A DNA stretch of 64,000 nucleotides from Polaromonas sp. GTDB lineage: Bacteria > Pseudomonadota > Gammaproteobacteria > Burkholderiales > Burkholderiaceae_C. The stretch's first letter is position 1. The number at the start of each line of letters is the position of its first letter. The notes below the pieces were generated by a model. It was not told where the DNA came from, did no database searches, and saw only the letters and a program-made list of their open reading frames with translations. Of the stretch, positions 8,177 through 55,880 are shown piece after piece. The position numbers and the translations under genes were made by a program. The stretch is from positions 1 to 64,000 of the forward strand of contig NZ_JAQSDL010000080.1 of assembly GCF_029945895.1 (NCBI RefSeq), in the 5' to 3' direction.

Positions 8177-8340
8177 GGCCCCCACGCTTGTCGCTTCGCG
8201 TACAGCGCGAGGCCTTGCAGGTCGCCGCTCGCCAGAGGCAGTGCTTGTGTCGCCTGTCCAAACCTGCGCAGGCAGATTTTTGAGCCTCAGGCTTCAGCCC
8301 CTCAGGGTCGCTGCGCCTGCGGCCCGGCGAAGCCGGTTCC
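8177..8340 (+). repeat. Family A repeat, composite copy A1
   Basis: The head GCCCCCACGCTTGTCGCTTC starts within two bases of the crp-like stop codon. The tail (CTGCGCCTGCGGCCCGGCGA then AGCCGGTTCC) ends at 8340. Between them about 100 bases are unrelated to the usual short centre. Orientation is sense to the upstream gene. Confidence 0.8.
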
Positions 8341-8413
8341 CTTGCCCCCGGTTGGCCCAAACGGCTTAACCCCACCGGCACAGGGTCGCAGGGCTCCATA
8401 GGACAATGACCGA

Positions 8414-10342: not shown

Positions 10343-10440
10343 CGAAGCTTCCGCGCTTGTCGCTGTGCGTACTGCGCTGGCCCCGAGGGGGCGCTTGCGC
10401 CTGCGGCCCGGCGAAGCCGGTTCTGCGGCCCCTGCTTGAA
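10343..10440 (+). repeat. Family A repeat, copy A2
   Basis: This copy begins at the base after the msrB stop, sense to msrB. It has a diverged head (GCGCTTGTCGCTGTGCGTAC), the centre GGCCCCGAGGGGGC, the tail CTGCGGCCCGGCGAAGCCGG and the extension CGGCCCCTGCTTGAA. The last bases include TTGAA, placed where a -35 for yciB could be. Confidence 0.85.
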
Positions 10441-10460
10441 AAGAACGGGGCGTTGCCCCT

Positions 10461-26410: not shown

Positions 26411-28666
<2,256 letters not shown>

Positions 28667-28677
28667 TTAACCAGGTC

Positions 28678-28757
28678 GCCGCGGAACCGGCTTCGCCGGG
28701 CCGCAGGCGGCGCCCCCTGCAGGGGGGAAGCGGCCGCAGGTCGCTACGGGGGGGAGC
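28678..28757 (-). repeat. Family A repeat A4 between zipA and ligA
   Basis: On the minus strand the head begins about eight bases behind the zipA stop codon. It is diverged (CCCCCCCGTAGCGACC) and is followed by the centre CCCCCTGCAGGGGGC and the tail CCTGCGGCCCGGCGAAGCCG. Orientation is sense to zipA. It fills most of the 123-bp gap before ligA. Confidence 0.8.
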
Positions 28758-29845: not shown

Positions 29846-29930
29846 GACTGGGCCCCCACGTTCGCTGGCCTGGCGCAGTGCTTTTGGCCTGACTTGAACA
29901 CCCGCGGGATGGCGGTTCCAGAAGGATTCG

Positions 29931-33807: not shown

Positions 33808-35103
33808 ATGAATCCACTGTTGAAACGCCTGCAGCCCTACCCTTTCGAGCGACTGCGCCAGTTGCACGCCGACGTCACGCCAAACCCGGCCTACCGCCCC
33901 ATCAGCCTGGGCATAGGCGAGCCCAAACATGCCACGCCCGAGCTGATCAAGGCCGCCCTGAGCGACAGCCTGGCTGGCCTAGCCAGCTACCCGGCGACCG
34001 CCGGCGAGCCGAAACTGCGGCAGGCCATGGCGGGCTGGATGTTGCGCCGTTACGGTCTGGCGCTGGACCCGCTGACGCAGATCCTGCCGGTGAACGGCTC
34101 GCGTGAAGCCTTGTTCGCGCTGGCGCAGACCGTCATCGACCCGACCATGGGTGCCCCCACGCTCGCCACTTCGTGTGCGTCGGTGCCCCCCGAGGGGGCG
34201 TCGCCCGCCTTGGGGCGGCCCAGCGGCGGGCTGGCCCGGCCTCTGGTGGTCTCCCCGAACCCCTTCTACCAAATCTACGAAGGTGCAGCCCTGCTGGCCG
34301 GCGCCGACACCTGGTTTGCACCGAGTGACCCGGCGCGCAACTTTGCGGTGGACTGGGCCGCCGTGCCGCAGGAGGTCTGGGCCAGGACGCAACTGCTGTT
34401 TGTCTGTTCGCCCGGCAACCCGACCGGCGCGGTCATGGGTCTGGACGAATGGAAGCTCCTGTTTGAACTGAGCGACCGGTACGGCTTTGTGATCGCCTCG
34501 GACGAGTGTTACAGCGAGATCTACTTCCGTGAGGAGCCGCCGCTGGGCGCCTTGCAGGCCGCCGCGCAACTGGGCCGCCACGATTTCAAGAACATCATCG
34601 CGCTGACCAGCCTGTCCAAACGCAGCAACGTGCCCGGCCTGCGCAGCGGCTTTGTCGCCGGTGATGCCGCGCTGATCAAGCCTTTTCTGCTTTACCGCAC
34701 CTACCATGGCAGCGCCATGAGCCCCATCGTGCAGGCGGCCAGCATCGCCGCCTGGAACGACGAGGCGCATGTGGTGGCGAACCGCGCCATGTACCGGGAA
34801 AAATTTGCCAAAGTCACACCATTGCTGGCCGCAGTGATGGAGGTGGCGCTACCGGACGCGGGCTTCTACCTGTGGGCCCAGGTGCCGGCGTGTTTTGCCG
34901 GCGACGACGCGGCTTTTTCGCGCGAGCTGCTCGCTCTTTACAATGTCGTGGTGTTGCCCGGCAGTTACCTGGCCCGCGAAGCCCGCGGCCAGAACCCGGG
35001 CGCCGGCAGAATCCGCATGGCCCTGGTGGCTGAAACCGCCGAGTGTGTCGAAGCCGCTGAAAGAATCGTTTCCTTCATCCAATCCAGAACCCATCCAACA
35101 TGA
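33808..35103 (+). CDS. dapC: Succinyldiaminopimelate transaminase DapC with a repeat-derived insertion
   Basis: This 431-residue PLP-dependent class I/II aminotransferase makes N-succinyl-LL-2,6-diaminopimelate on the lysine/peptidoglycan route. The PLP lysine is K271 in [19 protein letters not shown] and DECYSEIY contact the cofactor. Residues about 116-145, between VIDPTMG and [15 protein letters not shown], are an in-frame family A repeat that makes the protein some 30 residues longer than usual. The start at 33808 is behind GATAAT. The TGA overlaps the dapD ATG. Context with dapD and dapE argues for DapC rather than another aminotransferase. Confidence 0.92.
34152..34240 (+). repeat. Family A repeat A5 inside dapC
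   Basis: It begins GCCCCCACGCTCGCCACTTC, has the centre TGCCCCCCGAGGGGGCG and ends in a GGGGCGGCCCAGCGGCGGGC variant tail. It is sense and read as [16 protein letters not shown]..., the same frame as copy A3 in ligA. The subtype resembles A7 in prmB. Confidence 0.85.
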
Positions 35104-35927: not shown

Positions 35928-36028
35928 ATGGCCTCCACGCTTGTCGCTTCGCGTACTTCGCTGCCCCCCGAGGGGGCCGCTGCGCCTGCGGGCCGGCGAA
36001 GCCGGACCCGCGGCTCCTGCTTGAACGG
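35928..36028 (+). repeat. Family A repeat, copy A6 (well preserved)
   Basis: It starts about three bases after the dapD stop, sense. Head GCCTCCACGCTTGTCGCTTC, then GCGTAC; centre TGCCCCCCGAGGGGGCC; tail GCTGCGCCTGCGGGCCGGCG, AAGCCGGACC; extension CGCGGCTCCTGCTTGAA. The CCCCC/GGGGG core could form a strong hairpin in the dapD mRNA 3' region. Confidence 0.9.
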
Positions 36029-36106: not shown

Positions 36107-39500
<3,394 letters not shown>

Positions 39501-43906: not shown

Positions 43907-44023
43907 GCTCTTCCAGTCGGGGCCGCGGAACCGGCGCTGCCGGGCTGCGGGCGCTGCGCCCCTCTTCTTCGTGCAAGGGGCAGCGCACCAACGAAGGCAG
44001 GCGAAGCGACAAGCGTGGGGGCC
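43907..44023 (-). repeat. Family A repeat, copy A8
   Basis: On the minus strand the head GGCCCCCACGCTTGTCGCTT begins directly behind the YedE stop (44025-44027), sense. The middle is longer than usual. The tail reads GCCCGCAGCCCGGCAGCGCC, then GGTTCCGCGGCCCCGAC. It lies between the YedE-type gene and tcdA. Confidence 0.85.
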
Positions 44024-55781: not shown

Positions 55782-55880
55782 CAGTCCAGCAGGGGCCGCG
55801 GGACCGGCTTTGCCGGCCCGCAGGCGCAGCGGCCCCCCCGGGGGGCAGGGAGCTACACGCAGTGAGAGACCGTGGGGGCA
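55782..55880 (-). repeat. Family A repeat, copy A9
   Basis: On the minus strand it begins three bases behind the rlmH stop with TGCCCCCACGGTCTC, has a centre of CCCCCC/GGGGGG type, then GCTGCGCCTGCGGGCCGGCA, AAGCCGGTCC and CGCGGCCCCTGCTGGA. It is sense to rlmH and fills the gap before maf. Confidence 0.85.

Follow-up and report, generated by a model that had tools for sequence, protein, structure and literature searches.

Directly behind the stop codon of a dapD-type succinyltransferase gene, the 64,000-nt stretch of Polaromonas DNA that was analysed (the window) carries one copy of a short hairpin repeat, with a G+C content of 74.3%. Further intergenic copies follow crp-like, SelR (msrB), zipA, YedE-type sulphur transport, and SPOUT methyltransferase (rlmH) genes (Table 1), and the six upstream gene names agree with those given in the initial annotation. 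That annotation also described six stop-proximal copies with a common head, all in the sense orientation; the orientation holds for all six, but the common head for only five. GCCCCCACGC-type heads were located at 8178, 10347, 35931, 44022(-), and 55879(-), that is, 1, 4, 3, 2, and 4 nt past the upstream co-oriented stop, respectively. The zipA copy, which starts ~8 nt past the zipA stop in the sense direction, has a diverged head, and a profile of the repeat found its 3' part alone (14.4 bits, model positions 39-106).

The further statement that copies always lie behind stops in the sense orientation captured a strong bias but fails as a rule, because three intragenic copies and a decayed head at ~29850, facing the zipA start codon, are also present in the window and had been missed. 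The intragenic copies add peptides to a DNA ligase, an aminotransferase, and a PrmB-like methyltransferase, and their insertions (141, 84, and 84 nt) are all multiples of three. The 84-nt insertion in the aminotransferase gene is common to one relative (G004) and missing in four of five. At the zipA start, fuller copies occupy the equivalent place in G026, G004, and G050. An Rfam scan of the window returned a single match, a tRNA, and none on the repeat.

Table 1. Copies of the repeat located in the window
Copy	Position	Strand	Remarks
dapD, long form	35928..36028	+	head G at 35931, 3 nt past stop
crp-like gene, enlarged by inner palindromic stretch between head and 3' hairpin	8178..8351	+	
msrB (SelR domain), long form	10345..10444	+	
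zipA, diverged head	28664..28757	-	among five relatives, common to G033 only
YedE-type sulphur-transport gene	43909..44023	-	3' of gene
rlmH (SPOUT methyltransferase), long form	55784..55880	-	same-stop copy in 4/4 comparable relatives
ligA, intragenic, sense	28020..28123	-	within 141-nt (47-codon) in-frame insertion, missing in 5/5 relatives
Aminotransferase gene, intragenic, short form, sense	34152..34226	+	84-nt in-frame insertion
prmB-like methyltransferase gene, intragenic, short form, antisense	38912..39004	-	84-nt in-frame insertion, missing in 5/5 relatives
Decayed head opposite zipA start codon, opposite orientation	29849..29891	+	

The element is a repeat of ~84-101 nt with three hairpins. 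Its head, GCCCCCACG, is followed by hairpin I (for example CGC-TTC-GCG or CAC-TTC-GTG), hairpin II (CCCCC-loop-GGGGG), and then either a long or a short 3' module, the 5' half being common to both forms. The long module consists of GCGGxCCGGC-loop-GCCGGxxCCGC and then CCCCTGCTTGA, and the short module has variable yet complementary arms around TTGGGGCGGCCCGGC. When this structure was laid over 52 copies, mostly of the long form, 91.4% of the cells were paired and 10 pairs showed two-sided changes; the covariation score was 0.181 versus 0.085 for shuffled alignments (0/500) and at most 0.067 when the structure was slid, with the structure itself drawn from the same sequences. The CCCCC-GA-GGGGG core, to which the initial annotation had ascribed a hairpin, is one of three hairpins. 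The dapD copy folded singly was no more stable than its shuffles (z -0.50). An enlarged variant, represented by the copy at 8178-8351, by L009:2997+, and by copies in G026 and G004, contains an additional palindromic stretch (GAGGCCTTGCAGGCCGCCGCTCGCCAGAGGC-like) that either widens hairpin II or takes its place.

The genome from which the window was taken (the source genome) yielded 86 matches to the head pattern at ≤3 mismatches, versus 1 for a control pattern; all but one of them (C13:808) lay in the stretches that were extracted. A profile search of 80 source-genome stretches plus the window (0.54 Mb) gave 149 matches, 128 of which were complete enough to place, and these comprised 102 intergenic, 15 intragenic antisense, and 11 intragenic sense copies. 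Genes were called with our own codon-model caller rather than taken from annotation, so that starts are less certain than stops. An upstream gene was called for 100 of the intergenic copies; 77 were sense and 23 antisense to that gene, and in 64 the head was located between -1 and +12 nt relative to a sense stop. The expected share was 4.8% under uniform intergenic placement and 7.6% when weighted by the A/T-rich flank motif, which was derived from 49 copies in intragenic or antisense positions (P < 1e-45). Chance placement, already judged improbable on the six window copies, is thereby ruled out, and the genome-wide check revealed neither random orientation nor a missing peak within 10 nt of stops.

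Since the source-genome stretches had been chosen for heads or blast matches, the count was repeated in a contiguous 400-kb block of the relative G033, where 9 of 15 head-complete copies were in the sense orientation with the head between -3 and +12 nt relative to a stop. When the syntenic windows of five relatives, G033 among them, were added to this block, 30 of 40 copies were at sense stops, the copies being partly orthologous. In the records listed by title, 34 of 63 intergenic copies were at sense stops (106 usable copies from 80 of 119 listed stretches, after removal of weak, headless, and edge copies); the corresponding ratio in listed records not titled Polaromonas was 11 of 23, and called genes contained 28 of the 51 copies in those records. 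Overall, about half of the examined copies lie directly 3' of a stop codon and co-oriented with it, far beyond chance. This closeness is independent of the available room, as the median head-stop distance was 3 nt for the 23 sense-stop copies with at least 120 nt to the next gene. A native codirectional spacing below 40 nt was found for 28% of 50 sense-stop copies versus 48% of 261 other pairs (P=0.009), and this rarity in tight codirectional gaps fits retention where room exists.

The antisense intergenic copies of the source genome had their heads near a called start codon in 16 of 23 cases (0 of 3 antisense copies in the G033 block); hence, a 3'-UTR effect alone does not account for heads at gene edges. 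In such copies the complement of the head offers a G-run, a candidate ribosome site for the adjoining gene. As a separate observation, antisense copies prevail among the intragenic copies of the source genome and the listed loci (46/69, P=0.008, a value that is too small because tandem copies were counted singly).

The two forms differ in context. The 64 stop-proximal sense copies comprised 50 long, 7 short, and 7 unclassified copies, and the 26 intragenic copies 7, 15, and 4, respectively (long versus short, P=2.4e-6). The 23 antisense intergenic copies included 12 long, 8 short, and 3 unclassified copies, so the sense-stop to antisense ratio was 50:12 for the long form versus 7:8 for the short form (P=0.018), with a head common to both. 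The long form is thus concentrated behind stops in the sense orientation, and the short form is most often intragenic. In another genus of the family, five successive heads exactly 84 nt apart were observed (G264:C28:272565-272922), a tandem array with a unit of short-form length.

The element is mobile on an evolutionary time scale, as the initial annotation had considered: alignments at the window loci show clean empty sites in close relatives, and presence at dapD varies. The dapD-stop copy of the source genome has no counterpart at the equivalent place in G050 or in G033, a relative that is 91-98% identical to the source genome at the compared flanks. In G004 and G050, the element separates the members of a gene pair, presumably for an ABC transporter, whose stop and start overlap in the source genome and G055; in G026, a decayed copy separates them. 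Different forms occupy the same stops of dapD, msrB, and rlmH in different species. In comparable relatives, sense-stop copies persisted in 19 of 27 locus-relative cells versus 1 of 15 for intragenic copies (P=8e-5; the cells were tallied by eye from alignments, and the P value is too small because they share ancestry). Among 30 dapD loci of the genus, the best matches of 61 genomes searched, the profile recognised a sense copy in 13 (more than one copy in four of these), an inverted copy in 1, and none in 16, including L110 with a possible degenerate copy. The sense label required 9 changes on the tree versus a shuffled mean of 10.0, at least 6 being forced by well-supported branches, and the presence of a dapD copy is therefore without phylogenetic signal. 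A second short repeat (CCTTCGACAGGCTCAGG / CCTGAGCCTGTCGAAGG) was also seen inside the dapD copy of G004 (L083) and beside the remnant in the G026 gene pair.

The copy number of the head pattern ranged from 0 to 138 among 61 genomes of the genus, with at least one copy in 55. In 300 genomes of the order, the pattern matched in 21, and counts above one occurred only in the family of the source genome (5 of its 9 genomes). Titles among the matches listed were Polaromonas, Rhodoferax, Variovorax, Hydrogenophaga, Xenophilus, Ramlibacter, Acidovorax, Giesbergeria, and Comamonas. With the dapD copy as the query (E 1e-5), 1 of 72,556 plasmid records matched, at 65% on a 1.3-Mb Variovorax replicon, and none of 50,697 phage records did. 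No larger autonomous version was noticed by eye among the profile matches in the source-genome stretches and the window.

The closest described kind appears, by its description, to be the Beta-proteobacterial repeat element (BRE), the function of which was given as not known (Hot et al. 2011, PMC3110155). The present family may be related to BRE or identical with it. BRE copies have a full length of 75-91 bp and an average G+C content of 69% (63.7-78.9%), and they occur in Polaromonas (up to 29) and other Comamonadaceae (PMC3110155), a host range that the present element matches among the matches listed. Both are short, G+C-rich, and mostly intergenic, with some wholly coding and some tandem copies and with variation between relatives (PMC3110155). 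The two short-form inserts (84 nt) fall within the BRE size range, and the long form (~101 nt) lies above it. Unlike what we describe here, the main text on BRE does not use the term 'stop codon', and its description names no sense rule, long and short forms, or in-frame inserts (PMC3110155).

Among other palindromic families, REPs are 20-40 bp palindromes with a conserved GTAG or CGTC end that sometimes provide a TAG stop codon, and according to the same account they lie near the 3' ends of upstream ORFs with some intragenic copies, as the present element does (PMC3733652). In contrast to REPs, the unit here measures ~84-101 nt, contains three hairpins, and lacks a fixed GTAG/CGTC at the head. 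With the tag missing and a unit of this length, we did not assign the element to the REPs. Rickettsia palindromic elements (RPE) insert into protein genes, adding peptides. The present repeat, likened to them by description, differs in host group and in that most source-genome copies are intergenic (102/128). RPE are mentioned alongside REPs (PMC3733652), and the Ype and Efa stem-loop repeats were described as preferring the 3' ends of coding sequences (PMC1590033), a likeness, again by description, across other host groups. A literature search of partial coverage found no further title on this Polaromonas repeat.

Several explanations may account for the placement behind stops. G+C-rich hairpins closely 3' of stops and in the sense orientation are what an intrinsic transcription terminator spread by mobility would offer, and termination was among the roles initially suggested. 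However, at the three of six stop-proximal copies that lie between 27000 and 45000 of the window, the scan returned no sense-strand T-run terminator-like site, and the one T-run site overlapping the 43909-44023 copy is on the opposite strand. Convergent gene ends are not enriched either: the next gene was codirectional in 50 cases and convergent in 13, compared with a background of 338:134, and the element even sits between the stop and start of the gene pair that overlaps in the source genome and G055. We regard the element as unlikely to be a terminator, and a mobile terminator family as very improbable. Another claim concerns the mobiliser and is compatible with the other readings, namely that a resident RAYT-like Y1 transposase moves the repeat as a REP/REPIN-type element. 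RAYT-mobilised repeats typically lie on either side of the transposase gene and co-occur with it across genomes. The source genome does encode a single RAYT-like Y1_Tnp gene (L130:1462-2157, on G000:C107), but the profile found no copy in 3.3 kb around it, and Y1_Tnp occurs in 60 of 61 genomes of the genus (48 with a single match), including all six without a head-pattern match. The palindromic, stop-proximal, and occasionally intragenic character is shared with described REPs (PMC3733652), without their tag at the head. Given the lack of flanking copies and the occurrence of Y1_Tnp without the element, we set this candidate aside as improbable.

A stronger rival is that a mobilising enzyme joins the head to stop-like A/T-rich sequence or to gene edges in transcribed DNA, in which case an RNA function would be unneeded. 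In the pooled, intragenic, and antisense intergenic copies alike, the head follows a 9-nt A/T-rich stretch; the stop-head spacer has an A+T content of 66%, compared with 37% behind other stops; TAG accounts for 21 of the 64 stops that carry a copy versus 62 of 424 elsewhere (stop usage P=0.001); and the occupied dapD stops carry different forms. The occurrence of different forms behind one stop across species also fits such an insertion preference without function. On the other hand, an A/T-rich target motif falls short as a full explanation, predicting 7.6% of intergenic copies at sense stops compared with the observed 64%, and the A/T stretch may itself belong to the inserted DNA, as the prmB-like and L018 copies suggest. 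Moreover, no target-site duplication was detected in 87 long and 32 short copies (an apparent one at L072:5225 is a single case), and the split between sense-stop and antisense copies differs between forms that share a head. Insertion specificity as the whole account is plausible, though on balance not probable. It is rather doubtful that integration is aimed at stops in the sense that an A/T-rich leader takes the place of the stop or lies next to it, the long 3' module supplies a ready-made 3'-UTR hairpin, and the sister form adds in-frame intragenic peptides; if it were true, the genome would repeatedly gain and swap 3'-UTR cassettes behind the same genes.

Most likely, the placement reflects mobility combined with retention of copies as tolerated or useful 3'-UTR hairpins. 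We infer, with slightly better than even confidence, a non-autonomous mobile hairpin repeat family whose copies directly behind stops are retained because they are harmless or useful there. Under retention, insertions would reach many places and most would later be lost, while copies directly 3' of a stop, read as RNA, would persist because they leave the upstream frame and the downstream ribosome site intact. The candidate 3'-UTR hairpin could then shield the upstream message or separate neighbouring cistrons, without terminating transcription; stabilisation or processing of mRNA by the element is possible. Hairpin I begins ~8 nt into the element and the usual stop-head spacer is 0-8 nt, which would place hairpin I at about the boundary of a terminating ribosome of the footprint generally assumed. 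A wobble-pair test, which is rough because helix III of the alignment pools both forms, counted 46 G.U versus 39 A.C pairs in the sense intergenic copies and so gave no indication of RNA selection in situ; the antisense copies (23:4 intergenic and 14:2 intragenic) showed the opposite of what such selection predicts. Because there is no G.U excess in the sense intergenic copies, targeting at insertion stays a serious rival to retention.

Repeats of this kind are usually dismissed as junk. Here, a preference for stops and for the sense orientation is quantified for a family of ~100 copies, whose members at a given stop vary from species to species and whose two 3' modules favour different contexts. 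Since close relatives with and without a given copy exist, whether copies owe their position to a benefit for the mRNA or to targeting of the 3' end is directly testable, and the question of retention versus targeting in 3'-end repeats can thus be addressed in an environmental genus.
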